DNA of 64,000 bases from an uncultured Selenomonadales bacterium (GTDB lineage: Bacteria > Bacillota > Negativicutes > Selenomonadales > Selenomonadaceae): assembly GCA_946408355.1 (NCBI GenBank), contig CAMJRX010000009.1, positions 1-64,000 of the forward strand. The letters are read 5' to 3'. Shown here one piece after another: positions 14,587 to 38,261 of the stretch. Within the stretch, counting starts at the first letter, position 1, and each line of letters begins with the position of its first letter. The position numbers were made by a program, and so were the translations under genes. The notes under the pieces are model-generated. The model ran no database searches and was not told the origin of the DNA. It worked only from the letters and a program-made list of their open reading frames with translations.

Positions 14587-14592
14587 CGCTCA

Positions 14593-23270: not shown

Positions 23271-26200
23271 ATGGGAAATTCTGCAATCTCCGTAATAATT
23301 CCGCTATACAATGCCGAAAATTATATAGGCGAATGTTTGGACAGTCTTTTAGCGCAAACTTTTAAAGATTTTGAAGTTATTGTCGTTGATGACTGTTCAA
23401 CTGATGACAGCGTTGAAATTGTCGAGAGTTATAAAGAAAAATTTAACGAACGACTTACAATTTCTAAGACGGAAGAAAATTCAGGTGGCGCAGGCTACGT
23501 TCCGCGAAATATCGGATTTAATTTAGCGAGTGGCGAATATATTTTCTTTGTAGACGCCGAAGATTATCTTTTGGATAGTGCATTAGAGACTTTGTATAAA
23601 TCGGCAAAAAAATATGATGCGGAAGTCGTTTATACAGGCGTTCGCTATCAATTTGATGATCCCGATGAAATTCGCACGGTAAAAGATGGCGAAGGTGAAC
23701 GATTAATTAAGAACAGGCGCGAAGATAAAACTACTTTGCTAGATGATATGCCGAATGAAAGTCTTAAACAGCTTTCTTTGGCGGGAAATTTTCTTGAGGC
23801 CTCCTCAAAATTTATTAGGAAAGATTTTTTAATTAAAAACGAAATTACTTTCCCAGAAACAATTACTGGTAGCGAATTTCTTTGGACGGTTAATATTTAT
23901 TGTCATGCAAAAAAATTCTTACGTCTTATTACGCCGATTTATTTTTATAGAGTTCGTGACGAGTTTGTAGCATCTAAAGAGCAACCGAACGAAGAAATTT
24001 CCGCTCATGTTTCGGAATTTATTGCATTTTTAAAGGCTCTAAACTACATTGTAAATAGAAATCCAATCTTAAAAGAAAATCCGGTTTACTCTTACAAACT
24101 ATTGAGTATTGCTTTTAATTATCACTTTAAATCGTTATCCGAAGCATTAAATAACTTAAGTAGCCAAGAAGTTTACGAAAATTTAATTCGCGAATTTGAA
24201 GATAAAAGCGATTCTTCCGAGCTATCTGTACCGTTCTTCTTCAGCCAAATCGTTAATCGTAAAAAACGCATGCTTAAAAGTCCGGATCCTATTGTCGCAC
24301 CGAAAGTTCAGGATATAGCACTACCTTTTGAGTCTGAAACTGTTACTCCCGACGATGAGCAACACCCTGCAGTTTCCGTAATTATTCCAATGTTCAATGT
24401 GGAAAAATATATCGGCGAATGTTTGGAAAGTATCCTCTTGCAGACTTTTCAAGACTTTGAAGTTATCGTAGTCGACGACTGCTCCACTGATTCGAGTTAT
24501 AAAGTTGTAGAAAGTTACATTCCCAAATTTGATGGACGGCTTAAACTTGCGCAGACTGAAAAAAATTCGGGCGGCGAAACTATGCCGCGAAATATCGGAT
24601 TCAATATAGCTAAGGGAGAATATATTCTCTTTGTTGACAGTGACGATTTTATCCTTTTGACTGCGTTAGAAAATCTATACAAAGCGGCCAAAAAATATAA
24701 TGCCGATGTTGTTTATACTTGTGAATATTATCGTTCAGATAAACAAAATGAAGTTTATAAGTTGTTAGATGGCAGAGGAAATACGCTTTCCAAAAAGGGA
24801 ATTGAAGATACGACGACTTTGAGAATTAATAAACCCTATGAAAATTTATATCAACTTATTTTTAAAAACGAATTTCCTAACGTATGGACAAAATTTGTTC
24901 GTCGTGAATTCTTGATTGAAAACAAAATTTTCTCGCCGCTAGGTTTGCCTATCAGTGGGGATTTTATTTGGGTTATTGAAGTTTTCGCTCATGCAAAAAA
25001 TTTAGTTCGCATGCCTTTCCCGTTTTATTTTTACAGACATTATCGCGTAGGCTCCGTTGTAACGACGAAAAGGAAACCGGAAGAACAAATTTCCCATTGG
25101 GTATCAGCTTTTATTCCTTGGCTAGGGGCTTTAAGCAACTTATACAAAAGAATTGAAATGTTGCATGAAAATCCTGCCTATTGCTACAAAGCTTTGTTCA
25201 ATCATTTTTCTTGGTGCCTCCGCTGTTTATCTGAAGAGCTTAAAGATTTTTCGGACGAAAATATTTACGAGATTTTATACAAAAAATTTACTAAGGAAGA
25301 TGGCTCCGCTGATTTAATAGTTCCATTTTTCTTCAGCCAAATTGTTAATTTCGAAAGACTTCCTGCAAAGTTGGCTGCTATAAGTTCTGCTAAAAAACAT
25401 TTTAGAGCTTCTAAACTGAAAGCTTTGGTAACACATTTTCCTGCTATCTCGGTTATTATTCCCATGTACAACAGGAAAAAATATATCGGCGAATGTCTCG
25501 ATTGTCTCCTCGAACAAACTTTTCCGTATTTTGAAGTTATAGTGATTGACGACTGCTCGACTGATAATAGCGTTGAAATTGTCGAAGGTTATAAAGAAAT
25601 ATTCGGCGAGAGACTTAAGCTTATCAAGCTAGAAAAAAATACAGGGCATCCGGGCGAGCCGCGTAACAGAGGAATTGCCATTGCGCAAGGCGAATATATT
25701 TATTGTCTGGACAGTGACGACATTATTACCGAAACTGCGCTTGAGGAAATGTACACTCTTGGCAAGAAATTTGATGCTGACGTTGTTTATTGTGAAAAAT
25801 ATTTTATGTCGGAAGGCACTGGACAAGATTTAAAAAATAATATTCGTGTTGCCAACAATCGCCTTCAAAAGCCGCCGTTTGTTGATGAGCCTACACTTGA
25901 ATCAGACGATTTGGGAGAACGAGTTAAAAAGTTCCTGAATTGGAATTATTGGATGTCGCCCGCTCTTAAAATTGTAAAACGCGATTTGTTGATTGGTAAC
26001 GACATAACATTTCCTTCGCTGGTTGGTTCGGAAGATGACGTTTGGTCTTTGAAGGTTACCTTCTGTTCCAAAAGATTTTTGCGCATACCTAACATTTGCT
26101 TTATAAGAAGAATGCACGACGAGGGCATTTCTTTTGGTGAATATACCACTCCCGACCACGTTCAAAGATGGATGGACGTTACAATCCGTTCTTTAAAAAA

Positions 26201-29200
26201 TGTGGATAACTTCCTTAAGAAGATAGACTTCTTTAAAGAAAATCCCATTCATCGCTACGAACTACTTGAACGTTTAGTAAATGCAAGTTTTGGTAATGCT
26301 TTTGGCAGATTAGCAAATGAATCTTCTTTTGAAATTTACAATATCTTCAATGAGAAATTTGGCGACTCTCTAGGTGAATATGATATTTTGATTACTCTTC
26401 TCTGCACCCAAATAATTAATCAAAGAAAAGTATTGTCACAACAGAAAAAAAATCCCGCTGACGAGGCTAAACAACTCATTGCGGAAAAAGTTGCCACGAT
26501 TAATAAAATTGCAAAAAATATTGATTCTGTACCTACTCTTCCCGTTCCAAGTTCAAATGTTCCGCCAATTTCCGTAATTATCCCGATGTATAATGCAGAC
26601 GAATATATTGGCGAATGCTTAACAAGTCTTTTAATGCAGACGTTTAAAGATTTTGAAGTTATCATAGTTGATGACGCCTCAACCGACGGTAGCGTAGCCA
26701 TTGTCGAATATTTAGCAGAAAAATTTAACGGGCGGCTCAAGTTTGCAAGTACGGAAAAAAATTCTGGTGGCGGTGGCTACATTCCGCGAAATATCGGACT
26801 TGAACTCGCACACGGCGAATATATTTTCTTCTTAGACGCTGACGACATTATTTTAGATAACACATTGGAGACCTTGTATAAGGCGACAAAAGATTATGAT
26901 GCTGATGTCGTTTATATGAGTGCTTATTACGATTACAGTAGCAACGGGAAATTTGTATTAAAGGGCGTAGAAGACAATACAACTTTAGCAATCGACAATC
27001 CGAGTAAAAATCTTAATAGGCTGCTGTTTAATGGAGAAGCTCGCAATTCGTGGACAAAATTTGCTCGTCGAGAATTTCTGTTAAAAAATGAAATTACTTT
27101 CCCTGAAATAATGTCTGGTGGCGACTTTATATGGACGATGCATGTTTACTGCTGTTCAAAGAGATTTTTGCGTTTGCCAAGCCCGCTTTATATCTATAGA
27201 AATTATTCCGACAAATCTATTCTTAGAAAGAAAAAGGCTCCAGCGGAACAAAGTTTTTATTGGGCGTCGGCATTTGTTACTTGGGCAAAAGCCTTTAACA
27301 AACTTATCAATGAAAACGAAATTTTACAAAAAAATCCTTCTTATTGTAGACAGGCTTTGACTCTTCATTTTGATTATTGCCTTGCATGTTGTTTTGAAGC
27401 CCGAAATAAATTAAATGCGCAAGAGCTTTACGATGTTTTACAGAAAGAATTTTCAAAGGATTATACTGATTCCGCGCTCCCGTTCCTCTTAAGCTTTATC
27501 AGCGAACAACAGAAAAAATATGACGGAGATTCTTATTTGATTGATAAGTTGAGTCTGTATATTACGGCGCGTGTAGACATTAAGCTTATAACAAATATGG
27601 GTAAAGGCGATTTAAAAATCCTTTCCGTGTCTGATAATAAAGCTAGCGTTAGTAAGCCTGATTGGTTGCAAAAAGACGGCGTTGGTTATACAATTCAGTC
27701 TCATGCTGGGAAAATAGAGTTCGTTGCCAAAGCCACTACAAACGGAAAAATTAATTTAAATCTTAGGAGTCTAGATATTCGCGATCCAGCGGACAAATCT
27801 AAGCGAGTTCCCTATTGGATAGATTACACTAAGTTGACAGTAAAAGGTAATACAATATTCAACAAACTTACACCCGCTTGGCATGATAAAGCTTATCGCT
27901 ACGACATAGACGTAAAAGCTAACGAGGCAGTCAAAATACAAATCGAGTGGCTTCCGCACAGAGGCGACATTTTACCGCCGCCTAAACCTGTAGAAATACC
28001 TAAACTCGTGGAAAAACCCGTTGAATTTCTGCCGAATCTAACAGCACGATTGGAAGTTCAAATGGTATCCGATACGGGCGAGGGCGATTTTAAAATTCTT
28101 TCTGTGTCTGATAAGATAGCTAAAACGATTAAGCCTGACTATTTAAACAGGGAAGGCATAGGCTACCAGATTCAATCTTATGTCGGAAAAATGGCATTCA
28201 TTGCTAAATCCACTACGGACGGGAAAGTAACCTTGAAGCTTAAAGGTATGAACGTTCATGACCCAGAGGATAAATCTAAACTCGTGCCCTATTGGATAGA
28301 CTATACGAAGTTAACGGTAAACGGCAAGACGATAATCGACAAACTCACACCCGCTTGGCATGATAAACCTTATCGCTATGACATGGACGTAAAAGCAAAC
28401 GAGGAAGTTAAGGTAGAGGTTGAATGGTTCCCCCACAGAGATGAAGTTGTAGTTGAAGTTCCTAAACCTGTGGAAAAACCAGTTGAATTTTTGCCGAATC
28501 TAACTGCGCGATTAGACGTTCAAATGGTATCAGATACGGGCGAGGGCGATTTCCAAATTCTTTCCGTGTCCGATAAGCGGGCTAGCGTTAACAAACCTGG
28601 TTGGTTGCAAAAAGACGGCATAGGCTATGTTATTCAGTCTTATATAGGAAAAATGGAGTTTATAGCTAAAGCCACTGCGGACGGACAAATAACTTTGAAG
28701 CTTAAGGGTATGGATATTCGCGATCCAGAGGATAAATCTAAACTCGTGCCCTACTGGATAGATTATACGAAGCTGTTGATTAACGGCAAAGCAATAATCG
28801 ATAAACTTACGCCCGCTTGGCATGATAAACCTTATCGCTACGACATGGAAGTAAAAGCAGACGAGGAAGTTAAGGTAGAGGTTGAATGGTTCCCCCACAG
28901 AGATGAAGTCGTGGTTGAAGTTCCTAAACCTGTGGAAAAACCAGTTGAATTTTTGCCGAATCTAACAGCGCGATTAGACGTTCAAATGGTATCAGATACG
29001 GGCGAGGGCGATTTCCAAATTCTTTCCGTGTCCGATAAGCGGGCTAGCGTTAACAAACCTGGTTGGTTGCAAAAAGACGGCATAGGCTATGTTATTCAGT
29101 CTTATATAGGAAAAATGGAGTTTATAGCTAAAGCCACTGCGGACGGACAAATAACTTTGAAGCTTAAGGGTATGGATATTCGCGATCCAGAGGATAAATC

Positions 29201-29837
29201 TAAACTCGTGCCCTACTGGATAGATTATACGAAGCTGTTGATTAACGGCAAAGCAATAATCGATAAACTTACGCCCGCTTGGCATGATAAACCTTATCGC
29301 TACGACATGGAAGTAAAAGCAGACGAGGAAGTTAAGGTAGAGGTTGAATGGTTCCCTCACAGAGATGAAGTCGTGGTTGAAGTTATTAAACCTGTAGAAA
29401 AACCCGTTGAATTTTTGCCGAATTTAACTGCGCGATTGGATCTTCAAATGGTGTCCGATACGGTTGATGGCGAATTTAAAATCCTCTCCATTTCCGATGA
29501 TAAAGCTAAAACGACTAAGCCTGACTATTTGAACAGAGATGGCATTGGCTATGTAATCCAGTCCTTTGCAGGGAAAATGGAGCTTATAGCTAAAGCCAAC
29601 GAAGACGGGCAAGTAATTCTAAAGCTTAAGGGTATGGACATTCGCGACCCAGGCGATAAATCTAGACGTTTACCTTACTGGATAGACTATACGAAGCTGA
29701 CGGTAGATGGCAATACGATATTCGACAAAATAACTCCCGCTTGGCACGATAAGCCTTACCGTTACGACATAGACGCCGAAGCCGACGAAGAAATTAAAAT
29801 ACAAGTTGAATGGCTCGCACATAATAAAGATACGTAA
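23271..29837 (+). CDS. Giant protein with four GT2 glycosyltransferase domains and five C-terminal repeat modules
   Basis: A 2188-aa cytoplasmic-looking protein without transmembrane segments. Four GT-A family 2 domains start near residues 5, 366, 725 and 1100. Each opens with a (S)VIIP(L/M)(Y/F)N motif, has a nucleotide-binding DD(C/A)ST segment and a DxxD-like metal site (FVDAEDY, FVDSDDF, CLDSDDI, FLDADDI), and ends in a ~100-residue helical tail. From about residue 1430 five modules of ~155 residues follow, each with the landmarks VSD, GIGY.IQS, IRDP..KS, PYWIDYTKL and TPAWHDK.YRYD. The modules look beta-rich and are separated by Pro/Val/Glu-rich linkers (EVPKPVEKPVEFLPNLTARL); I infer a glycan-binding or scaffold role. 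Modules 3 and 4 are nearly identical. The Mg-binding motifs look intact in all four GT2 domains, which suggests assembly of a multi-sugar unit. Confidence 0.88.
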   Translation: MGNSAISVIIPLYNAENYIGECLDSLLAQTFKDFEVIVVDDCSTDDSVEIVESYKEKFNERLTISKTEENSGGAGYVPRNIGFNLASGEYIFFVDAEDYLLDSALETLYKSAKKYDAEVVYTGVRYQFDDPDEIRTVKDGEGERLIKNRREDKTTLLDDMPNESLKQLSLAGNFLEASSKFIRKDFLIKNEITFPETITGSEFLWTVNIYCHAKKFLRLITPIYFYRVRDEFVASKEQPNEEISAHVSEFIAFLKALNYIVNRNPILKENPVYSYKLLSIAFNYHFKSLSEALNNLSSQEVYENLIREFEDKSDSSELSVPFFFSQIVNRKKRMLKSPDPIVAPKVQDIALPFESETVTPDDEQHPAVSVIIPMFNVEKYIGECLESILLQTFQDFEVIVVDDCSTDSSYKVVESYIPKFDGRLKLAQTEKNSGGETMPRNIGFNIAKGEYILFVDSDDFILLTALENLYKAAKKYNADVVYTCEYYRSDKQNEVYKLLDGRGNTLSKKGIEDTTTLRINKPYENLYQLIFKNEFPNVWTKFVRREFLIENKIFSPLGLPISGDFIWVIEVFAHAKNLVRMPFPFYFYRHYRVGSVVTTKRKPEEQISHWVSAFIPWLGALSNLYKRIEMLHENPAYCYKALFNHFSWCLRCLSEELKDFSDENIYEILYKKFTKEDGSADLIVPFFFSQIVNFERLPAKLAAISSAKKHFRASKLKALVTHFPAISVIIPMYNRKKYIGECLDCLLEQTFPYFEVIVIDDCSTDNSVEIVEGYKEIFGERLKLIKLEKNTGHPGEPRNRGIAIAQGEYIYCLDSDDIITETALEEMYTLGKKFDADVVYCEKYFMSEGTGQDLKNNIRVANNRLQKPPFVDEPTLESDDLGERVKKFLNWNYWMSPALKIVKRDLLIGNDITFPSLVGSEDDVWSLKVTFCSKRFLRIPNICFIRRMHDEGISFGEYTTPDHVQRWMDVTIRSLKNVDNFLKKIDFFKENPIHRYELLERLVNASFGNAFGRLANESSFEIYNIFNEKFGDSLGEYDILITLLCTQIINQRKVLSQQKKNPADEAKQLIAEKVATINKIAKNIDSVPTLPVPSSNVPPISVIIPMYNADEYIGECLTSLLMQTFKDFEVIIVDDASTDGSVAIVEYLAEKFNGRLKFASTEKNSGGGGYIPRNIGLELAHGEYIFFLDADDIILDNTLETLYKATKDYDADVVYMSAYYDYSSNGKFVLKGVEDNTTLAIDNPSKNLNRLLFNGEARNSWTKFARREFLLKNEITFPEIMSGGDFIWTMHVYCCSKRFLRLPSPLYIYRNYSDKSILRKKKAPAEQSFYWASAFVTWAKAFNKLINENEILQKNPSYCRQALTLHFDYCLACCFEARNKLNAQELYDVLQKEFSKDYTDSALPFLLSFISEQQKKYDGDSYLIDKLSLYITARVDIKLITNMGKGDLKILSVSDNKASVSKPDWLQKDGVGYTIQSHAGKIEFVAKATTNGKINLNLRSLDIRDPADKSKRVPYWIDYTKLTVKGNTIFNKLTPAWHDKAYRYDIDVKANEAVKIQIEWLPHRGDILPPPKPVEIPKLVEKPVEFLPNLTARLEVQMVSDTGEGDFKILSVSDKIAKTIKPDYLNREGIGYQIQSYVGKMAFIAKSTTDGKVTLKLKGMNVHDPEDKSKLVPYWIDYTKLTVNGKTIIDKLTPAWHDKPYRYDMDVKANEEVKVEVEWFPHRDEVVVEVPKPVEKPVEFLPNLTARLDVQMVSDTGEGDFQILSVSDKRASVNKPGWLQKDGIGYVIQSYIGKMEFIAKATADGQITLKLKGMDIRDPEDKSKLVPYWIDYTKLLINGKAIIDKLTPAWHDKPYRYDMEVKADEEVKVEVEWFPHRDEVVVEVPKPVEKPVEFLPNLTARLDVQMVSDTGEGDFQILSVSDKRASVNKPGWLQKDGIGYVIQSYIGKMEFIAKATADGQITLKLKGMDIRDPEDKSKLVPYWIDYTKLLINGKAIIDKLTPAWHDKPYRYDMEVKADEEVKVEVEWFPHRDEVVVEVIKPVEKPVEFLPNLTARLDLQMVSDTVDGEFKILSISDDKAKTTKPDYLNRDGIGYVIQSFAGKMELIAKANEDGQVILKLKGMDIRDPGDKSRRLPYWIDYTKLTVDGNTIFDKITPAWHDKPYRYDIDAEADEEIKIQVEWLAHNKDT
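28418..29370 (+). repeat. Near-identical 462-bp tandem duplication inside the giant glycosyltransferase gene
   Basis: The sequence from about 28418 recurs from about 28880 with a period of exactly 462 bases (154 codons). It carries modules 3 and 4 with only a few base differences, mostly silent. The other modules of the array are clearly diverged, so this is a recent in-frame duplication. Confidence 0.9.
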
Positions 29838-29919: not shown

Positions 29920-30978
29920 ATGGCAACTTTTACCTCACAAAATTACCCTGCAATCTCTGTGATTATTCCGATGTATAACGCGGAAAATTACATTGAAGAT
30001 TGCCTTAAAAGTCTCCTAATGCAAACTTTCCAAAACTTTGAAGTTATATTGGTGGACGATTGCTCAACCGATAATAGCGTTGCCGTTGCCCAAAAATTTA
30101 TGGAGAATTTTGAAGGGAATTTTGTAATTCTCACGACGGAAAAAAATTCGGGCAATTTTGGCTACACGGCACGGAACAACGGTTTTGATTTTGCTCGTGG
30201 CGAATACGTTTTCTTCATGGACGCCGACGACGCAATTATCGATAAAGCTTTTCAAGGACTTTACAAGGCGGCAAAAAGTTTAAATGTAGATGTTATCTAC
30301 ACGGGCGCACGCTATCTTTACACGTCTAACGAAGGCGAGAAATTGAAACGCGACAAAGAGGGGCGCATGTGGAAAGATAAAGGCATTGCCGAGAAACCGA
30401 CGCTTATAACCAATGAACCACATAGACTGCTTAAAAATCTTTTGCTTAATGGCGGCGTTTTCTGGACGGCGTGGACAAAATTTGTTCGCCGAAAATTTCT
30501 AATAGAGAAAGACATCAAATTTTATGAAATAATTTCCGGCAGTGATTTTCTTTGGACGATTGAGCTTTTCTGTTGCGCTGAAAGATTTTTACGAATTCCC
30601 AACGCAATTTATTTTTGGCGCAATGACGCTAAAGCATCGGCGACACGTAAAAAGAGATTACCTGACGTTCAAATTAGTACATGGAGCAGAGCATACTTTT
30701 ATCTGGCGCAAGCATTAAAAGACTTGGCTAATCGGCGAGAAATATTAAAAGAGGATCCACTGTATTTGTATTTTGCGCTGAAACGTCATTTGAAATTTTG
30801 CCTTAAAGTTACTTCTGAAGAACGCCTTCAATTTAAATCCAAAGATATTTACGAAATTTTATGGCGCGAGTTTGAAGGCAAAAACGAACTCGATATGTTG
30901 ACAATGTTTTTCCTTAGTTTTATAGACCTTCAGCAAAAAGAAATTGATAGCCTTAAGGACAAAGAGCCTCAAGGTTAA
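29920..30978 (+). CDS. GT2 family glycosyltransferase
   Basis: A 352-aa single-domain relative of the GT2 domains in the preceding giant gene. It has AISVIIPMYNAENYIEDCL at the N-terminus, VDDCSTDNS, and the metal-binding FMDADDAI near residue 98, then the same helical tail ending in FFLSFIDLQQKEIDSL. The ATG at 29920 has GAGGAGG upstream; the 29902 TTG of the longer frame overlaps that site. The acceptor is unknown. Strong similarity to domain 4 of the giant protein suggests it arose from the same expansion and works in the same glycan pathway. Confidence 0.88.
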   Translation: MATFTSQNYPAISVIIPMYNAENYIEDCLKSLLMQTFQNFEVILVDDCSTDNSVAVAQKFMENFEGNFVILTTEKNSGNFGYTARNNGFDFARGEYVFFMDADDAIIDKAFQGLYKAAKSLNVDVIYTGARYLYTSNEGEKLKRDKEGRMWKDKGIAEKPTLITNEPHRLLKNLLLNGGVFWTAWTKFVRRKFLIEKDIKFYEIISGSDFLWTIELFCCAERFLRIPNAIYFWRNDAKASATRKKRLPDVQISTWSRAYFYLAQALKDLANRREILKEDPLYLYFALKRHLKFCLKVTSEERLQFKSKDIYEILWREFEGKNELDMLTMFFLSFIDLQQKEIDSLKDKEPQG

Positions 30979-31011
30979 TCAGCATAAAATGTAGGTTAAA
31001 GGATAGTATTT

Positions 31012-32187
31012 ATGGAAGAAAAAAATAAGCCGACCGCGAAGATTGAAAGCTACGTAATCAGCATAAAGGGCGGCGATAAAGAACGAACAATTAAGCTGTC
31101 GTCGGGCATGTTTAGATTCGGCGTGGCGAGCGTGCTAATCGGCGGGCTGTTGCTTGTCGGTACAGTGGCTTTTTCTTTTTACAGCGCAATGCGTATGCAA
31201 CGCGATGCCTCAACGATTTACGAGGTTGAACAGGCAGCAGAACTTAGGCAGGAACAACTTTTGACGCTCTCAAAAAAGGCGGCAACGTTAAGCGAAACAA
31301 TTCAAAACCTAGCACAACAAGAACAGGAATTGCGAATTCAAGCGGGACTTAATCCGCCCAAAGACGATAAAACGCCTGAAACGCCTCCCGCCGAAGGTCA
31401 ACCTGCAGAGGCTCAACCTGCTGAAAATCAATCGACTGAAACTCAACCCGCCGCCGAAACTCCTGCAGAAAATTCAGCTGAACACAACGGACAAGGTGGT
31501 CCTGTTGAAGAATTGGATATTGCGGAAGTTTCAGAGGCGTTGGACATGTTAGAGGCTAAAGTTAGCACGCGCAAGGAAAGCCTCGATGATTTCCAAACCG
31601 AGCTTAAACAGCAACGCGAACAACTTGCACGCGGCGCGGCAATGGCAAGTGGTTATTCTCCCGGATCGGGCAGTTGGTCGGCTCCTGCTGGCAGTGTTCA
31701 ATTCGACTTTGCGAACGGCTTGCCGATTATCCCTTCAGCCGGTTCGATTCCTGCGCCTGGTTCCTTCCCCTTCGATCCAAGTCTTGTCGGCGGTAGTGGC
31801 GCGGCTGATTCTCGTATTCCGTCAATTTGGCCGACGACAGGTGTTGTAACTTCGCCTTATGGTTTGCGTTGGGGCGGCACTGATTTTCACCCCGGCATGG
31901 ATATTGCTAACGATATGGGCACTCCGATTGTCGCGACGGCTGACGGTGTTGTCGATTACGCGGGTTGGAATTCGGGCGGTTATGGTAACATGGTTGACAT
32001 TGATCACGGCAACGGTATCATGACGCGCTACGGTCACGCCTCGCAAGTTGTAGTTAGCACGGGGCAACACGTCAAGCGCGGGCAACTTATCGCTTATATG
32101 GGTTCGACGGGCTTTAGCACAGGTCCACACGTCCACTACGAAGTTCACGTAAACGGGCAACGCGTCAATCCTATCAGTTATCTCTAA
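31012..32187 (+). CDS. Membrane-anchored M23-family peptidoglycan endopeptidase
   Basis: A 391-aa protein with a cytoplasmic N-terminus, one transmembrane helix (about residues 33-56), a coiled-coil stretch (about 65-105), a Pro/Glu/Ala-rich linker (about 115-160), a second coiled coil and a C-terminal LytM/M23 zinc domain (about 270-391). The zinc ligands are visible in FHPGMDIAND and GPHVHYEV. Such proteins cut peptide cross-links or activate amidases during growth and division. It follows the GT2 gene by 33 bases and is the last gene before the convergent solute-binding protein. Confidence 0.92.
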   Translation: MEEKNKPTAKIESYVISIKGGDKERTIKLSSGMFRFGVASVLIGGLLLVGTVAFSFYSAMRMQRDASTIYEVEQAAELRQEQLLTLSKKAATLSETIQNLAQQEQELRIQAGLNPPKDDKTPETPPAEGQPAEAQPAENQSTETQPAAETPAENSAEHNGQGGPVEELDIAEVSEALDMLEAKVSTRKESLDDFQTELKQQREQLARGAAMASGYSPGSGSWSAPAGSVQFDFANGLPIIPSAGSIPAPGSFPFDPSLVGGSGAADSRIPSIWPTTGVVTSPYGLRWGGTDFHPGMDIANDMGTPIVATADGVVDYAGWNSGGYGNMVDIDHGNGIMTRYGHASQVVVSTGQHVKRGQLIAYMGSTGFSTGPHVHYEVHVNGQRVNPISYL

Positions 32188-32198
32188 GGACAAAAAAA

Positions 32199-32240
32199 TA
32201 GTGGTTAGTGACGAGGACAAAACCTAATCACTAACCACTA
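32199..32240 (-). terminator. Perfect 13-bp inverted repeat, probable terminator of the solute-binding protein gene
   Basis: TAGTGGTTAGTGA (32199-32211) and its exact complement (32228-32240). On the minus strand the stem is followed by seven T, placing it as the terminator of the gene ending at 32256; it may also stop M23 transcripts. The TAACCAC-type wording recurs at 22001-22031 inside a coding region. Confidence 0.65.
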
Positions 32241-32255
32241 ATATTAATCACTAAA

Positions 32256-33128
32256 TTATTTCAACGTCACACCAACGCGGCTGTCCATAAGATAAGGAAC
32301 GGAAACTGCGAAACCTTCGACGTTGTCGAGCGGATAGGGCAGAGCTTTGCCGTCTTGGTCGTAAACACCGATAACCCAGAACAGCGCGTCAACTTGACCG
32401 GAGGACAATGCGGCACTACGAGCACCAGCGTCAACGTCGATAAGCTCAATGTTCTTGTTAATGCGCTTGCTAAGTTCAGAGAGGAATGCAACATTGAAAC
32501 CTGCGGGTTTGCCGTTAGCAGTCATAAAGTCCATAGCGGGCATATCACCGGTTACGGCAACTTTAATCGTCGGCGCACCTTCGATAACGGGCATGGGCAT
32601 TGCGGCGGGTTCACCATTGCCAACATCGGTGATATTTTCTTTAATGATTTTGTCAATGGTTCCGTCGTCTTTCATGGTTTTGATAGCGGTGTTAATCTCT
32701 TCAATCTGCGCGGCGTCTTTCTCAAGCATACCAATCGAGTAACCCAAAATCGGCTTGTAGTTGTTGTCGATAACTTTAAGGGCGTCGTTGTGAGCCGCAA
32801 TATAATTACCAACTCTGCTACTCGTTGAGAAACGGTCGATTTGTTTAGCCTGAAGAGCTGCAATCATAGCGTTCATATTGTCGAAGAAAGTAACCGTGTT
32901 CGGAGCCGTATAGGCTTTTTGCCCTTCAACTTCGGCAATGCTTTTAGTCCAGCGTTTATAGCCTTCTTCGTCCAAACCGATTGGCATGAGTGCACCGATT
33001 TTGCTTGCTTGTTGCTCATTTGCCGCAGGAGCGGGAACCGGTTCCTCTGCTTTCTTATCGCCGCCGCCACAACCCGCGCAAGCCACCAACATAACAAGTG
33101 CTAATAATAACCCAAATATTTTTTTCAT
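32256..33128 (-). CDS. Family 3 solute-binding lipoprotein with apparently permuted lobes
   Basis: A 290-aa lipoprotein (lipobox near LVAC/CAGC, residues 14-20) of the periplasmic amino-acid-binding superfamily. The order of the two halves looks circularly permuted. Residues ~42-165 resemble the second half of a usual protein (TVTFFDNMNAMIAALQAKQID, YSIGMLEKD, INTAIKTMKDDGTIDKI). Residues ~188-290 resemble the first half (TIKVAVTGDMPAMDFMTANGKPAGFNVAFLSEL, AALSSGQVDALFW, VSVPYLMDS). A short Met/Pro-rich linker joins them. No permease or ATPase gene is adjacent. It has its own promoter and terminator. It presumably binds an amino acid or a small organic ligand; which one is unknown. Confidence 0.8.
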   Translation of the reverse strand: MKKIFGLLLALVMLVACAGCGGGDKKAEEPVPAPAANEQQASKIGALMPIGLDEEGYKRWTKSIAEVEGQKAYTAPNTVTFFDNMNAMIAALQAKQIDRFSTSSRVGNYIAAHNDALKVIDNNYKPILGYSIGMLEKDAAQIEEINTAIKTMKDDGTIDKIIKENITDVGNGEPAAMPMPVIEGAPTIKVAVTGDMPAMDFMTANGKPAGFNVAFLSELSKRINKNIELIDVDAGARSAALSSGQVDALFWVIGVYDQDGKALPYPLDNVEGFAVSVPYLMDSRVGVTLK

Positions 33129-33159
33129 GGTGTACCTCCTTTGAAAAATAGTTTATACT

Positions 33160-33207
33160 AGTCATATTGACTGCCTGCATTATACAAGGCGATTGTCAAA
33201 TTTTCAA
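33160..33207 (-). promoter_or_regulatory. Promoter and operator-like palindrome of the solute-binding protein gene
   Basis: On the minus strand TTGAAA (33207-33202), 17-base spacer, TATAAT (33184-33179). The predicted start point falls at the edge of the perfect palindrome AGTCA-TAT-TGACT (33160-33172), well placed for repressor binding. No clear promoter for the divergent ilvN is seen. Confidence 0.55.
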
Positions 33208-33231
33208 TACAAAATTTAGGGAGGTTTTATC

Positions 33232-33732
33232 TTGCAAAAATATTTTCTAGCAGTTCTGGTTGAGAATAAGCCAGGCGTCTTGACGCACGTATCTGGACTT
33301 ATCAGCCGCCGCGCTTTTAACATCGAAAGCATCTCCGCCGGCTACACAGAGGAACCGTCCGTAACGAGGATTAATATCGTCGTCAGCGTCGAGTCCGAAA
33401 ACGAGCTGGATCAAGTCGTCAATCAGCTCAGCAAATTAATCGACGTGATTAAAATCGTCAACCTCAGTAAGTCACCGTCGATTGAGCGCGAACTCGTCAT
33501 GATTAAAGTTAAGGCGAATAAGCAGACCCGAGCAGATTTGGTTAGCGTCGTCGATATTTTCCGTGCCCAAATTGTCGACATTACCAGCGAAAATATTGTT
33601 ATCGAATTGACGGGCAGTCAAAATAAAATCGATGCGATTTGCGAAGTTTTAAGCGATTATGAAATTGTCGAGATTGCGCGAACAGGAACGATTGCCTTAT
33701 CGCGTGGTCCCATTCCCGTTAAAGCTATGTAA
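33232..33732 (+). CDS. ilvN: Acetolactate synthase small (regulatory) subunit
   Basis: A 166-aa regulatory subunit (IlvN/IlvH). An N-terminal ACT domain begins YFLAVLVENKPGVLTHVSGLISRRAFNIESISAG, followed by the second ACT-like half with ELVMIKVKA and the C-terminal EIARTGTIALSRG. It binds valine and controls the large subunit in branched-chain amino acid synthesis. The TTG start has GGGAGG upstream. No large-subunit gene is in the window, which is unusual since the two are normally adjacent. The next gene starts one base after the stop. Confidence 0.93.
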   Translation: MQKYFLAVLVENKPGVLTHVSGLISRRAFNIESISAGYTEEPSVTRINIVVSVESENELDQVVNQLSKLIDVIKIVNLSKSPSIERELVMIKVKANKQTRADLVSVVDIFRAQIVDITSENIVIELTGSQNKIDAICEVLSDYEIVEIARTGTIALSRGPIPVKAM

Positions 33733-33733
33733 C

Positions 33734-34996
33734 ATGAAAAAATTTTTTCTAATTATCTGCGCGGTGATTTTGTTAGTCGGTTGCGGAAATCAAGTTCAAA
33801 CGGTGCCGCCTCTGCCAGGAACGTTACCAAACATTTTAACTGCGCCGGAAAAAGTCGACACGGATATTTATTTTGACGCTACGGTTTCAATGCGGGGCTT
33901 TACGACGCAATCGGCGGGCAATGTTTACTTGACTTTGCCCGATTTATTGGGCGATTTATGCGGCTCAATGGGTACTGTGAATTTTTACGGATTCGGCGAG
34001 CAAATTCGCCCGCTTGACGGCAGAAGTTATCGGCAATTCACTTCGCCCGACGTTTACACCGAAGCGATAACTGCCGTTGCCAACGTCGTCGACCGCGCAG
34101 ATACAAACCACTTGTCAATTATCGTCACGGATTTATTTGAAAGCGAGTCCGATTGGAGCAACGTCGCTCAAAAGATTCGCGATAAATTTTTTGCTAATCA
34201 TCTTGCCGTTGCGATTATCGGGATAAAAAATTCTTTCAGCGGCGAAATTTTTGACGTGGGCTTAAATGCCGCGAAGTTCAATTACAATTCTTTTGACAAT
34301 CCCGACCGCTACCGCCCGTTTTATTTGCTGATTATGGGACGCGACGACGTTGTTAAAAATTTTCTGCGCAAGTTCAATGAGCGGCAGACTTTGCCGAATG
34401 ACACGGGCTATTTGCTGTTGTCGGAGAATTTGACGGAGGTGGCAAGCGATTTTTCTAACTTTGAACTCGGCGACGTGGAAAATTTTTATTCAGACGATAC
34501 ACTTGGTTTAGACAGTCGCGTTAAGGAATTCGGGCTGGATAATTTTAATGAGGTGGCGTCGTTTATGTTTAGTTGGAATTACCAACCGCCGCTTGGAGCT
34601 TGTCCGCTTGACTTGTCGGAAGTCGATACGGATATTGAAAATTTTTCAGTGGCGGGCGAAGAGTGGACGCCTCTTGATAAAAATGACGTTCGTGTCAGCT
34701 TATTAAAAGACGACAGACAGGCGGATATTTTCTTGGTAAAAGTTGCGTTGACGCCGGAAAAAACTTTAGCGGAAGGTAAATTAAATTTTGTGCAAATAAA
34801 AGTTATGCCAACGGAGCAAGGTTATAAATTGCCGGCATGGGTCGAACTTTGGAGCGTGAACGTCGACGGCGCGGCTAAAAATTTCGACGGCTCCAAAACA
34901 GTAAACTTAACTCGCGTGCTCGGTTCGCTGAAAGATTCAATCTTTGCAACGTCGCGTCCCGCGTTAATGAATGTTAATTTTGTCGTAATACCTTAA
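33734..34996 (+). CDS. Lipoprotein with a von Willebrand A-like domain
   Basis: A 420-aa predicted lipoprotein (lipobox LLVGC, Cys16). Residues ~38-215 begin TDIYFDATVSMRGFT, with Asp-x-Thr-x-Ser resembling the MIDAS metal site of von Willebrand A domains, and continue with alternating strands and helices including LSIIVTDLFES. The rest is beta-rich and unassigned. The ATG at 33734 is chosen because it gives a clean signal peptide; the longer frame overlaps ilvN. There is no free-standing ribosome site, so translation is probably coupled to ilvN. I do not know its function; a role in envelope protein assembly or sensing is possible. Confidence 0.75.
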   Translation: MKKFFLIICAVILLVGCGNQVQTVPPLPGTLPNILTAPEKVDTDIYFDATVSMRGFTTQSAGNVYLTLPDLLGDLCGSMGTVNFYGFGEQIRPLDGRSYRQFTSPDVYTEAITAVANVVDRADTNHLSIIVTDLFESESDWSNVAQKIRDKFFANHLAVAIIGIKNSFSGEIFDVGLNAAKFNYNSFDNPDRYRPFYLLIMGRDDVVKNFLRKFNERQTLPNDTGYLLLSENLTEVASDFSNFELGDVENFYSDDTLGLDSRVKEFGLDNFNEVASFMFSWNYQPPLGACPLDLSEVDTDIENFSVAGEEWTPLDKNDVRVSLLKDDRQADIFLVKVALTPEKTLAEGKLNFVQIKVMPTEQGYKLPAWVELWSVNVDGAAKNFDGSKTVNLTRVLGSLKDSIFATSRPALMNVNFVVIP

Positions 34997-35037
34997 GCCA
35001 ATTAAAAGTGATTAAAATCGGCGAAAAGTGATTGTAC

Positions 35038-35091
35038 AATCTCCCTAATTTTGTGGTTTAATGTCACAAAGCAAGTAAGGGAGATTTTTTT
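35038..35091 (+). promoter_or_regulatory. Terminator-like hairpin that includes the ribosome site of the pseudo-receiver gene
   Basis: AATCTCCCT (35038-35046) pairs with AGGGAGATT (35078-35086), which is followed by T to 35091 and directly by the ATG at 35092. Inside the loop TTTGTG and CACAAA can form a second stem. The 3' arm contains the AAGGGAG ribosome site, so the hairpin can both terminate transcription from upstream and hide the start of the next gene. Confidence 0.6.
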
Positions 35092-35397
35092 ATGAACATT
35101 GCCATTGTAAACGACGAGAAAGTAGAGCTGGAGACCGCTGAAACTTTTTTGCGCGTCTACATTAAAAAATTTTTGCCCGAACGTAAATCCGAAATTAATA
35201 TCGAGATTTTTCAGCGCACGGAAGATTTTTTCCAAATTTTCAGCGCGGGATTGTATAACTTTGTAATTATCGGTGCACACATGGAAGAAGTAGCAAATTT
35301 TATTCGTGCCAGTGGCGATTATGATGCTAAAATTCTTTTGTTTAAATTTAACGACAATTCTGGGGGGGGGGGAATTTATGAATATTGCACTCGTTGA
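35092..35397 (+). CDS. Truncated receiver-like protein lacking the phospho-acceptor Asp
   Basis: A 101-aa protein that aligns over its length with the N-terminal receiver domain of the next gene (MNIAIVNDEKVELETAE against MNIALVDDDRIELFAAK). The acidic pocket is weakened (VNDE instead of VDDD) and the phospho-acceptor Asp is replaced: FVIIGAH against LVILDIM, giving Gly61. It stops at 35397 after four Gly codons of an 11-G tract, overlapping the next gene by 20 bases. Removing one G would continue the frame straight into the LytTR regulator. It may be an unphosphorylatable partner, a switchable N-terminal extension, or a decaying duplicate. Confidence 0.7.
   Translation: MNIAIVNDEKVELETAETFLRVYIKKFLPERKSEINIEIFQRTEDFFQIFSAGLYNFVIIGAHMEEVANFIRASGDYDAKILLFKFNDNSGGGGIYEYCTR
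35362..35372 (+). repeat. Homopolymeric tract of 11 G at the junction of two receiver genes
   Basis: Eleven consecutive G, rare in this AT-leaning sequence. It lies in the last codons of the pseudo-receiver frame and 5 bases before the ATG of the LytTR regulator, so it also forms that gene's G-rich ribosome site. Slippage by -1 (or +2) fuses the two frames. Confidence 0.85.
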
Positions 35398-36106
35398 CGA
35401 TGACAGAATCGAATTATTTGCCGCCAAAAATTATCTGTGCGATTTTATAACTAAAAATTGGTCGGAAATAAATTTCACTATTCAAACGTTCTCTTCCGCC
35501 GATGATTTTTTAAAAGTTTTTAAGCCTGGAATTTTTCAGCTCGTAATTTTAGATATTATGATGCCTGAAATTGACGGCTTACAGACCGCGCAGATTATTC
35601 GCGCACGCGGCGACGACGCTGTTAATATCGTTTTTCTTACGAACAATGATAATTTTATTTTAAATGGCTATCGCGTCTTTGCTGTCGGATATTTTCTCAA
35701 GCCAATTTCCAAACACGAGGACGAATTTATTAAAACGTTCAATCATATTTTTCCTAAAATCTGCGAAAAAAATCCTGAAATATCTCTGCTTGTCAACGGA
35801 ATTAAATTTTCCATTTTCACTAGAAATATTCTTTACGTGGACATTGATTATCGTCACAGGCTTTGCGTTTATCTCGCCGACGGTAAAAAATTCGTAACTT
35901 CCAATTCTTACAACGAAATTTTCGAGGTTTTAACTAATGAAGAGCGTTTTTTAGAGTGTTATCACCGAATTATTGTTAACATGGATTATATTAAATCTAT
36001 GGAGCCGGACGATTTTACTTTAATGGACGGCACATCAATTCCCATTAGTAAGCGCAAAAAAAAGGAAGTACAAGTTAAATTTATGCGCTATTTGGCTCAC
36101 AAATAA
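35378..36106 (+). CDS. LytTR-family response regulator
   Basis: A 242-aa two-domain regulator of the AgrA/LytR type. The receiver (residues 1-118) has the acidic triad VDDD, phospho-acceptor Asp59 in VILDIMMPEIDG, and the conserved Lys in YFLKPIS. The LytTR DNA-binding domain spans about 135-238 (ILYVDIDYRHRLCVYLADGK, CYHRIIVNMDYI, ISKRKKKEV). LytTR regulators commonly control secreted or surface products in response to peptides. The ATG at 35378 lies 5 bases after the G tract. Its 3' end overlaps the convergent kinase gene by 10 bases, an arrangement that could allow antisense effects. Confidence 0.9.
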   Translation: MNIALVDDDRIELFAAKNYLCDFITKNWSEINFTIQTFSSADDFLKVFKPGIFQLVILDIMMPEIDGLQTAQIIRARGDDAVNIVFLTNNDNFILNGYRVFAVGYFLKPISKHEDEFIKTFNHIFPKICEKNPEISLLVNGIKFSIFTRNILYVDIDYRHRLCVYLADGKKFVTSNSYNEIFEVLTNEERFLECYHRIIVNMDYIKSMEPDDFTLMDGTSIPISKRKKKEVQVKFMRYLAHK

Positions 36107-37410
36107 TCGTTCCAATACAAATTTACGCGAACTAATCCATTTTCCTGCGAAAAATTTACGAACGCATTATATTTTTTAGTGAAAAGTTCTAACGAACCCA
36201 TTCCGAGTCCGTGACCTATTTGCGTCGTGTAAGGCAGTCCATTTTCTCCGAATTTTATTTTATAATCGTAGCGATTAGTTATTTCCAAAACATATTGTCC
36301 GCTCATGTGACGAATTATTACTGAAATTTCTCGCGCAGAGGGATTTTGTTTTTGGCTTGCTGTTATCGCATTTTCCAGCAAGTTGCTAATTAAAACTGCA
36401 AAATCGCTCTCGTCCGTAGAAAATTTTTCGGGCAAATCTATCGTGTGAGTTATTTTTATTCCAAGCTCCTCTGCTCGCCGAAAATGCATTGATAACGCGG
36501 CATTTATCAGCGGCAATCGGCTAAATTGTTGCAAGCGCGTCGAATCCAAAATTTCAACTTGCCGAGAAATAAAGTTCATCGCTTCATGTATTTTATCCGC
36601 ATTTATTAATTTCTTCAGTTCAGCGTAGTTTTCGGACAGATTTTTTTGCAATTCTGCCACTTCGCGCTGATTTTTTTCCATTAATAAATTATGTTCAGCT
36701 AATGAATTCATTTGTCGCGCTAACAGCCGATTCTTTTGTTCCGTTAAGCGTTTTTCCTCGATTTTCTGCGTCATTATGCTCATTGAACGATATATCAATA
36801 AAAAAAATACCGGAATAAACCAGCGCGAAAATCTTCCGTTCCATGTCGTTAAAAATGTCACTTCGACAATAGGAATTATCGTCCCGATAAATAACGCCAT
36901 CGGCAATATCGATATGCACCATTTTAACGCTTTATCCTCGAAAAATCGTTGTGTCGGCAGTAATTCTATAAAAAATTTCCGTTCAATCGGCAATAATCCA
37001 AAGAAAAATATCAGATAGAATGTAATTTGCAACGGCAAAAATTCTTCCGCCATTGTCCCGCGAATAAAAGCAACTGTCGTTCCCGCAAATGCATGCAACA
37101 TAAAACACCACATAGCTTGCATTCCAAGTACAAAAATGTGTTGCGAGAGTTTACCAATTATTATTAGTGAACTTAAAAAATACGGCAGCCAACCGACCAA
37201 TAATATAACTTTAAACGCAAAATAGCTCAATCCGTTCGATAATATCCATAAATCTAAAACAAAGCTCGCTAAACTTAATAGAATAAACCATTTTTTTAGC
37301 GCGTATAATTTTTCTTCCGAAATTTCGCGGCTAAACGGTAAATATCGCAAGTACGCGCCGGATAATTGAATTATCGTTAATATGACGTCCGAAAATATTA
37401 CTTCAGCCAT
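36097..37410 (-). CDS. GHKL-type membrane kinase lacking the phospho-acceptor histidine
   Basis: A 437-aa AgrC-like protein. About six transmembrane helices fill residues 1-225, followed by a coiled coil (about 228-275) and a C-terminal GHKL ATPase domain with the N box ISNLLENAIT (about 339-350) and the glycine box GHGLGMGSLE. The dimerisation segment that should carry the histidine reads LQKNLSENYAEL, so the histidines of the RHDxRH motif are replaced by Lys and Glu. The membrane domain is paralogous to that of the upstream gene (FKVILLVGWLPYFLSSL against YKAVLMLGWLPYFLISL). Its start overlaps the upstream gene by 13 bases. Inferred role: ATPase half of a two-protein kinase. Confidence 0.85.
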   Translation of the reverse strand: MAEVIFSDVILTIIQLSGAYLRYLPFSREISEEKLYALKKWFILLSLASFVLDLWILSNGLSYFAFKVILLVGWLPYFLSSLIIIGKLSQHIFVLGMQAMWCFMLHAFAGTTVAFIRGTMAEEFLPLQITFYLIFFFGLLPIERKFFIELLPTQRFFEDKALKWCISILPMALFIGTIIPIVEVTFLTTWNGRFSRWFIPVFFLLIYRSMSIMTQKIEEKRLTEQKNRLLARQMNSLAEHNLLMEKNQREVAELQKNLSENYAELKKLINADKIHEAMNFISRQVEILDSTRLQQFSRLPLINAALSMHFRRAEELGIKITHTIDLPEKFSTDESDFAVLISNLLENAITASQKQNPSAREISVIIRHMSGQYVLEITNRYDYKIKFGENGLPYTTQIGHGLGMGSLELFTKKYNAFVNFSQENGLVRVNLYWNDYL

Positions 37411-38261
37411 TCTTCTTGTTTCCTTATGTGTTCGCGAGCCGCCTCGATATTTCCGCTATCTAACATCGCATAAATTAAATTGTAACTGTGCCGCAAATCG
37501 TGCCGAATTACCGAAAATTTTTTCTGATTTTCTATTGTTAAGGCGTTATATTCCTTTAAAACCATTAATCTATCCTCCAAGCGTTGTTTATTTCGCTCCA
37601 GTTTCTGTAAATCGTAAAAATTCCTCGCCGCATTTAAAATATATCGGTAGAAAAAGAAAAATACAAGCGGCAAATAAATCCGAGATAACCTTTCTGCGTC
37701 CGAATGTACTAAAACACTGTCCGCAAGCCTGATTATGTGCGCCGAACTGATTACCAACGGTAAAATCGCAATGTATATTCCTATTGGGCGCATGGCGAAA
37801 AATTCGCGGCTCGGCAGTAAATTTATAAAATATCGCCCGTATATCGGCAAAAATATCGCGAATAATAGCAAATATCCAATCTCTTCAGCTAAAATTATTT
37901 CTGTCGCGTTGTTATATACCCATAGTTTTAAAATTATTATCGTCGAAATTGTATGTTGTACCAGCGAGCAAATTACGTTCATGCTCAAAATAAAAATGTG
38001 TTGCAGTAGCCCGTTTATTTGTTTCAAAGATATTAAAAAATACGGCAACCAACCTAACATCAAAACTGCTTTATAAGTTGCCGCGTTGATTCCGAAACTG
38101 TCGAAGAAAAATTTGTATAAAAAAATGCTCGCGACGCTCCACAGTGCCGAGTACGTGAAAATTTTTGGTTTAAGGTGCGGCGATTCGGATTTAGAAAATG
38201 CCAACCAGCGGATATAAGTGTCGATAAGCTGACCGAGCGAGATTAAAATTGGCAGAGTCAA
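37398..38261 (-). CDS. AgrC-like membrane sensor with histidine box but no ATPase domain
   Basis: A 287-aa paralogue of the downstream kinase. About six transmembrane helices are followed by a coiled coil and an intact phospho-acceptor motif VIRHDLRHSYNLIYAML (His254/His258). The protein stops 29 residues later, so there is no N box, no G box and no ATP-binding domain. The TTG start has GGAGAG upstream. The end overlaps the next gene and no frame of that overlap restores an ATPase domain here, so this is not a simple frameshift. It retains what its partner lost, which suggests the two act as a complex with phosphorylation across subunits. Confidence 0.82.
   Translation of the reverse strand: MTLPILISLGQLIDTYIRWLAFSKSESPHLKPKIFTYSALWSVASIFLYKFFFDSFGINAATYKAVLMLGWLPYFLISLKQINGLLQHIFILSMNVICSLVQHTISTIIILKLWVYNNATEIILAEEIGYLLLFAIFLPIYGRYFINLLPSREFFAMRPIGIYIAILPLVISSAHIIRLADSVLVHSDAERLSRIYLPLVFFFFYRYILNAARNFYDLQKLERNKQRLEDRLMVLKEYNALTIENQKKFSVIRHDLRHSYNLIYAMLDSGNIEAAREHIRKQEEWLK

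Follow-up and report, generated by a model that had tools for sequence, protein, structure and literature searches.

Two adjacent genes in a 64,000-nucleotide stretch of DNA from an uncultured, rumen-type Selenomonadales bacterium (assembly GCA_946408355.1, contig CAMJRX010000009.1, positions 1 to 64,000; hereafter the window) very probably encode one obligate heteromeric, AgrC-like receptor histidine kinase divided between two membrane proteins. The usual histidine kinase is a homodimer, each chain having both halves of the reaction. Here the upstream gene encodes a short protein with a phosphoacceptor histidine and no ATPase domain (the predicted acceptor subunit), and the downstream gene encodes a longer protein with an ATPase domain and no such histidine (the predicted catalytic subunit); both genes lie on the (-) strand. 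Comparison with relatives inclines us, on balance, to a broader view: that tandem receptor-kinase duplicates have repeatedly fallen into reciprocal dependence, with either role open to either gene, giving obligate one-way heteromers whose acceptor may be reduced to ~100 residues.

A sequence-only reading of the window had described these genes as tandem paralogous sensor kinases with complementary losses, and its account of them holds up well. Both open reading frames (ORFs) are present and overlapping (Table 1), and their products are 29% identical over 282 aa with the H boxes aligned free of gaps, which identifies them as paralogues. The acceptor carries SVIRHDLRHSYN and, as described, its C-terminus lies 29 residues past the RHDLRH motif; no match was found to Pfam at E ≤ 1 or to NCBIfam at E ≤ 0.1. 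The catalytic protein matches HATPase_c_5 (PF14501) over the cut-off (E 1e-11); its N box reads SNLLENAITA and its G box GHGLGMGSL. The loss of both its H-box histidines is confirmed by the segment QKNLSE, in which Lys256 occupies the His column, Asn257 the Asp column, and Glu260 the second His column. The 13-base overlap of the two genes recurs in four related loci (L044, L045, L046 and L047; L and G numbers denote the loci and genomes of our survey), with the remaining loci of the clade ranging from an 8-base overlap to a 3-base gap, and it suggests translational coupling.

Table 1. Features of the putative split-kinase locus, in window positions.
Feature	Positions	Strand	Description
Acceptor subunit (predicted)	37398..38261	(-)	287 aa, TTG start; membrane domain, signalling helix, complete dimerisation and histidine phosphotransfer (DHp) hairpin, His254; no ATPase domain
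Acceptor H box RHDLRH	37488..37505	(-)	His254 codon 37500-37502
Catalytic subunit (predicted)	36097..37410	(-)	437 aa; membrane domain, DHp hairpin lacking the His, and intact ATPase domain of Bergerat fold
Degenerate H box QKNLSE of catalytic subunit	36631..36648	(-)	Lys256 at His position
ATPase (CA) domain of catalytic subunit	36109..36513	(-)	Residues 300-434, including the N box (with Asn347) and the G box
Overlap of the two genes	37398..37410	(-)	13 bases
Response regulator	35378..36106	(+), convergent	Receiver (LVILDIMMPE, Asp kept) and LytTR DNA-binding domain
Pseudo-receiver	35092..35397	(+)	Asp-less (Gly instead); immediately upstream of the regulator gene, with overlap; no Pfam match

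Each protein was modelled as a single chain with AlphaFold2, using input alignments composed of the window proteins and their relatives only. The catalytic protein (mean predicted local distance difference test score, pLDDT, 78.1) has a long helix at residues 190-270, a second DHp helix at 274-290, and a full Bergerat fold at 300-434. The acceptor (mean pLDDT 84.7) has helices at 188-268 and 272-286 and reaches its chain end at 287; because these helices match those of the catalytic protein and the chain then stops, the acceptor ends cleanly past a complete DHp hairpin. The top fold matches of the catalytic protein in the Protein Data Bank (PDB) are cytoplasmic kinase structures of AgrC (6e95, 6e52, 4bxi); a PDB sequence search with this protein gave no match, and a fold search with the acceptor model gave no PDB match at E ≤ 0.001. 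The sequence-only reading had credited both proteins with a six-helix AgrC-like membrane domain. The helix count does not survive, as the models show about seven membrane-type helices, and the likeness to AgrC stands for the cytoplasmic part only. Of the attributes of AgrC-type (HPK10) kinases, the catalytic protein has the HATPase_c_5-type GHKL ATPase and the AgrC-like cytoplasmic fold and lacks an H-box histidine in the ATPase-bearing chain; a LytTR regulator is encoded by the adjacent gene and is the predicted partner on the basis of that adjacency. The arrangement as a whole, a histidine protein without a catalytic domain beside a catalytic protein without a histidine, is that of a split kinase of the CheA3/CheA4 type, as set out in PMC3591291.

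Relatives were sought at three levels. Family matches were found in 37 of 66 genomes of the genus (E ≤ 0.001), in 97 of 189 Selenomonadaceae genomes (E ≤ 1e-20), spread over 16 of 30 genera, and in 134 of 380 genomes of the class (E ≤ 1e-25), a set that probably includes those 189. The H, N and G boxes were scored in one alignment for 126 fetched stretches and the window. These stretches were taken from part of the family and class matches, with weak matches left out, and only 12 come from outside the family; ORF starts were assigned mechanically (first ATG, GTG or TTG), so that N-terminal lengths are approximate. The search for the pair in related genomes that the sequence-only reading had proposed shows the pattern of losses to be conserved: in the clade of the window, a His-bearing short protein lies upstream and a His-less kinase downstream in all 12 loci showing both genes, although the ATPase gene runs off the contig in two of these (L054 and L056). 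Three further loci of the clade are cut (L053, L055 and L081), and three loci have fragments only (L079, L080 and L081). Interrupted kinase genes of the same family were seen in L078 (G024), L079 (G004) and L197 (G332), and in L078 and L079 the neighbouring regulator is apparently interrupted as well.

The distribution of histidine and ATPase over the whole family is complementary. The histidine is absent in 46 of 123 ATPase-bearing proteins of at least 330 aa (near-duplicates included; L148, L054 and L056 were added by hand). Forty-three of the 46 adjoin a His-bearing family protein, 42 being recognised by script and one, L057, by eye, as its neighbour ORF overlap is too large for the script; the other three are L053, at a contig end, and the true exceptions L075 and L149. 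In 40 of these 43 cases (39 by script, plus L057), the adjoining His-bearing protein is without a usable ATPase. Where an ATPase-bearing kinase is the only family ORF of its locus, the histidine is kept in 68 of 69 loci (two of the 68 are cut at a contig end), and the sole His-less kinase, in L053, starts at a contig end. Viewed from the other side, 72 of 77 His-bearing proteins have no His-bearing neighbour, the rest being in L154, L119, L153 and, with both members, L110. Loss of the histidine and presence of a partner are concordant in 103 of 107 ATPase-bearing proteins (41 with both, 62 with neither), in a set that omits 16 loci (near-duplicate, contig-end or broken) and L153 and that counts as acceptors, by manual scoring, the partners in L072, L074 and L152, whose ATPase may work. 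No variation occurs at the R, H, D, R or H of RHDxRH among the 41 ATPase-free His-bearing proteins, one of which, from L078, is a fragment of a broken solitary kinase and no true acceptor; the His column of 50 His-less long proteins holds 10 residue types. With L078 set aside, the 40 acceptors stop 33-49 residues past the histidine, and AlphaFold2 places this cut at the end of DHp alpha 2.

Acceptors occur in two forms, one with six transmembrane (TM) helices and one of ~100 residues with a single TM helix. There are 13 of these mini acceptors, each encoded directly after a His-less kinase and each with RHDLRH; their mechanical ORF lengths are 100-170 residues. Ten of the 13 kinases at first looked solitary, and the other three had an odd short neighbour. 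In 6 of the 13 cases, the kinase and mini-acceptor genes share 7 bases. In the mini acceptor, a single hydrophobic helix (Kyte-Doolittle 2.1-2.9) is joined by a helical linker to a DHp hairpin. A profile of the first 22 residues, built from 7 of the 13 sequences, finds its best window at TM1 in all 12 larger downstream acceptors, so that the mini acceptor looks like a downstream acceptor stripped of the rest of its membrane domain. Because a multi-helix membrane domain remains only in the catalytic subunit of this branch, sensing probably resides there.

A tree was computed from the membrane and DHp columns with the H box blanked, using 92 of 129 rows after long-branch outgroups, fragments and near-duplicates were dropped. 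It contains an upstream-gene clade of 50 rows (support 100/98), inside which are ten solitary complete kinases, and a downstream-gene clade of 30 rows (support 99/97). The predicted acceptor role is taken by the upstream copy in some lineages and by the downstream copy in others. The upstream protein is His-bearing and the downstream protein has the ATPase in the window clade and in L126, L152 and L153; the polarity is reversed in the group of L057, L060, L068, L072 and L074, in group g3 together with L119, L154 and L150, and in the group that has mini acceptors. In genus g8 (L165, L166 and L185) and in L197, which form a separate part of the wider tree, the His-bearing protein is upstream. 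Trees uniting all acceptors in one clade, or all catalytic subunits in one clade, were rejected (p-AU, from the approximately unbiased test, 4.5e-9 and 3.4e-49, respectively). Parsimony requires a minimum of 10 changes of His state, 6 of ATPase state and 11 of role; read cautiously, these data suggest at least three, and probably five or six, independent splits. We infer an old tandem duplication of a complete kinase followed by reciprocal loss in several lineages, and the root and the number of events have the same standing. In a tree of the ATPase domain, the end branch of each of seven full-length acceptors is longer than that of its own catalytic partner in 7 of 7 loci (0.65-3.69 versus 0.37-0.82), as would be expected of eroding domains.

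Both genes of the pair are, by their substitution patterns, under purifying selection. Nei-Gojobori ratios of nonsynonymous to synonymous substitution (dN/dS) are 0.08-0.27 in 20 of 20 comparisons, comprising both genes in ten locus pairs from the window clade and two other split clades. Distances in one gene also mirror those in the other across 12 loci (r 0.89, a value that none of 10,000 permutations reached). Because the two genes lie side by side, the correlation shows their inheritance as a unit and is by itself no proof of contact, though it lends indirect support to a complex of the two proteins.

The convergent LytTR regulator (Table 1) is probably the output of the window pair. Of the 45 loci that combine a His-less with a His-bearing member, L129 among them, 34 have such a regulator within 600 bases, its Asp being kept in all 34; of the 11 that have no nearby LytTR regulator, six lie away from a contig end. 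The corresponding figure for single kinases is 42 of 68. The pseudo-receiver, a possible accessory part, is encoded separately in the window, L044 (11471-11758), L048 (6922-7278) and L051 (8968-9306), is present as a 73-aa piece in L049, and forms an in-frame fusion of pseudo-receiver, receiver and LytTR domain in L045, L046 and L047. As the regulator gene thus has a degenerate tandem partner of its own, the regulator side has likewise undergone duplication and specialisation.

We propose that the DHp hairpins of the acceptor and catalytic subunits assemble as a heteromer in which the ATPase of the long subunit could phosphorylate only the histidine of the short one (His254), a one-way trans-phosphorylation, and that the phosphoryl group would then pass from this histidine to the Asp of the neighbouring LytTR regulator. 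Such heteromers would have arisen from an ancestral tandem kinase duplicate by reciprocal loss in either polarity, the acceptor shrinking in one branch to ~100 residues with one membrane helix. Trans-phosphorylation had been suggested in the sequence-only reading, and the occurrence of both polarities strengthens the case for it. AgrC is described as trans-autophosphorylated in a staphylococcal review (PMC10482373), which would make a split of this fold mechanically possible; the available excerpt of PMC6755735 mentions AgrC dimerisation and autophosphorylation without the words 'in trans'.

Other explanations of the pair were weighed. The short protein could be a phosphotransfer protein or regulator phosphatase, comparable to Spo0B or MaeK and fed by other kinases, with the long protein acting as an allosteric pseudokinase. 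MaeK of Lactobacillus casei gives this a precedent, having a SPOB_a-type histidine and no functional ATP-binding domain and yet being active in its two-component system (PMC5457438), and in a SPOB_a scan the L112 acceptor, from another genus, matched weakly (E 0.0094; 16.0 bits, below the 28.1 cut-off), although the acceptors of the window, L060 and L111 did not match. The long proteins, however, retain N and G boxes with dN/dS of 0.09-0.25, which is unlikely for an unused ATPase, and every ATPase-free His protein has a visible His-less partner apart from the broken L078 and L055, which lies at a contig edge, with the proviso that searches with the long family would miss solitary mini acceptors; we consider this explanation unlikely. 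It is a good deal less probable still that the split is real and the roles not strictly paired, such that multi-subunit complexes form and catalytic proteins also serve the acceptors of other loci. Such cross-talk would accommodate L075 and L149, which hold His-less ATPase-bearing kinases without a local acceptor, and genome G169, which has two split loci (L150 and L151) in addition to L149, but dedicated pairs are indicated by the adjacency, tight spacing and co-divergence of the genes.

That the pair is a decaying tandem duplicate, a pseudogene in progress with its signalling lost, might be suggested by the broken single kinases with interrupted regulators found in the genus (L078 and L079). 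The reading is contradicted by the selection data, including dN/dS of 0.08-0.27 in all 20 comparisons, as well as by the invariant RHDxRH and the retention of both genes in 12 of 12 visible clade loci, and we regard it as highly improbable. There is next to no chance that one full-length kinase has been divided by an assembly error or frameshift. No evidence supporting such an artefact was found, although what is on record for the nearest relatives are draft genomes assembled from metagenomes; it is refuted by the paralogy of the two proteins, 29% identical and each with its own membrane domain, and by recurrence of the layout in separate assemblies from goat and sheep samples and of split pairs in near-complete genomes of other genera. 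A single full-length kinase in close relatives had been named by the sequence-only reading as the sign of such an error. Solitary kinases do occur in other lineages of the genus, but since they form separate groups that keep RHDxRH and are not an intact version of the window gene, assembly error is excluded. An intact copy elsewhere in the window genome was also rejected: a search with the long protein at E ≤ 10 matched these two genes alone, in an assembly that is 84% complete.

Several observations count against the interpretation of the pair as a split receptor and of the family as a series of such splits, beginning with that incompleteness of the window assembly. The His-bearing partner keeps plausible ATPase boxes in L072, L074 and L152, and in the first two of these HATPase_c_5 is still over the Pfam cut-off. 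L110 retains two complete copies, and L154 (RHDLKE), L119 (NHNF) and L153 are split in part only. L075 (G031) and L149 (G169) are tandem pairs without a histidine in either copy, and L129 and L130 (G120 and G122) are irregular, with an atypical SHEL box only, L130 being cut by a contig end; in these pairs one copy retains ATPase boxes. When the association between His loss and partner presence is corrected for relatedness, five independent contrasts are available and a sign test is non-significant (median p 0.25). The tree of the ATPase domain alone has no resolved backbone, and two long branches meet in it; because of this poor resolution, an old exchange of C-termini between tandem genes could explain some of the polarity reversals.

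The principle of a split kinase is already established. CheA3 and CheA4 of Rhodobacter sphaeroides were shown biochemically to be one, in that neither autophosphorylates alone and the mixture does, and the same paper counts 1556 of 42417 HisKA proteins, those without HATPase, as split-kinase candidates (PMC3591291). As in the window pair, ATP binding and the phosphorylatable histidine are on two proteins; unlike it, these are cytoplasmic chemotaxis kinases with a P1 acceptor domain, whereas the family described here comprises AgrC-type membrane receptors that would use a DHp hairpin as acceptor and whose splits, apparently more than once and with either polarity, arose from tandem duplicates. 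Hik36-Hik43 of Synechocystis is likewise termed a split histidine kinase, with two proteins and one response regulator, but is of chemotaxis/pilus type, with a histidine phosphotransfer (HPT) domain on one protein, dimerisation, CA and CheW-interaction domains on the other, and distant loci (PMC7656254). AgrC of Staphylococcus aureus resembles the window system in its GHKL ATPase, polytopic membrane domain and LytTR regulator and is the closest structural match of the long subunit; it differs in having histidine and ATPase in one chain, and it is described as a homodimer (PMC10482373). MaeK is, like the window acceptor, a membrane kinase-like protein with an acceptor histidine (in a SPOB_a-type domain) and no working ATPase, but it is a citrate-family sensor that keeps a degenerate CA domain, and no dedicated His-less catalytic partner is described for it in the available part of its source (PMC5457438). 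Limited searches of the open-access literature found no report of an AgrC-type split receptor, reversed polarity or a mini acceptor, and those for heterodimeric sensor kinases returned none.

If correct, these findings would define a family of split membrane-receptor kinases with repeated, polarity-reversed origins and with natural intermediates from homodimeric to asymmetric kinases. The visible half-way stages would let one ask why kinases dimerise and whether cis or trans phosphorylation channels their evolution. They also raise the question of whether the split buys a switch-like response, as modelled for CheA3/CheA4 (PMC3591291), or represents a neutral ratchet. With ~100 residues and one membrane helix, the mini acceptor would be a natural phosphoacceptor subunit of very small size, of use in engineering orthogonal signalling pairs. 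The split reading also suggests a role for short proteins, those scanned having no Pfam or NCBIfam match over the cut-off.

The surroundings of the pair were compared by gene order in ten clade loci. On the regulator side (window 30001-35427), the window and L044 have six ORF families in common, one of them antisense to the pseudo-receiver and probably no gene; as most flanking ORFs of the other loci are unmatched in this set, the flanks give no clear function. AgrB (PF04647) was found in none of the 66 genus genomes, in a search of low sensitivity (14 controls gave one match, below the cut-off) in which agrD was not sought; an agr-type peptide signal is thus unsupported in these genomes. Elsewhere in the window, the ORF list shows a 2188-residue ORF (23271-29837, (+)) that contains four repeats resembling glycosyltransferases and, towards the C-terminus, several repeats that are similar, and two adjacent ORFs (12076-16446, (-)) resemble by eye a type III restriction-modification pair, one helicase-like and one a DPPF-bearing, methyltransferase-like protein. 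Two further ORFs from the list (117-4043, (+), and 48009-53789, (-)) are very long and rich in GGxGND-like repeats, which we take to recall secreted calcium-binding RTX-type proteins.

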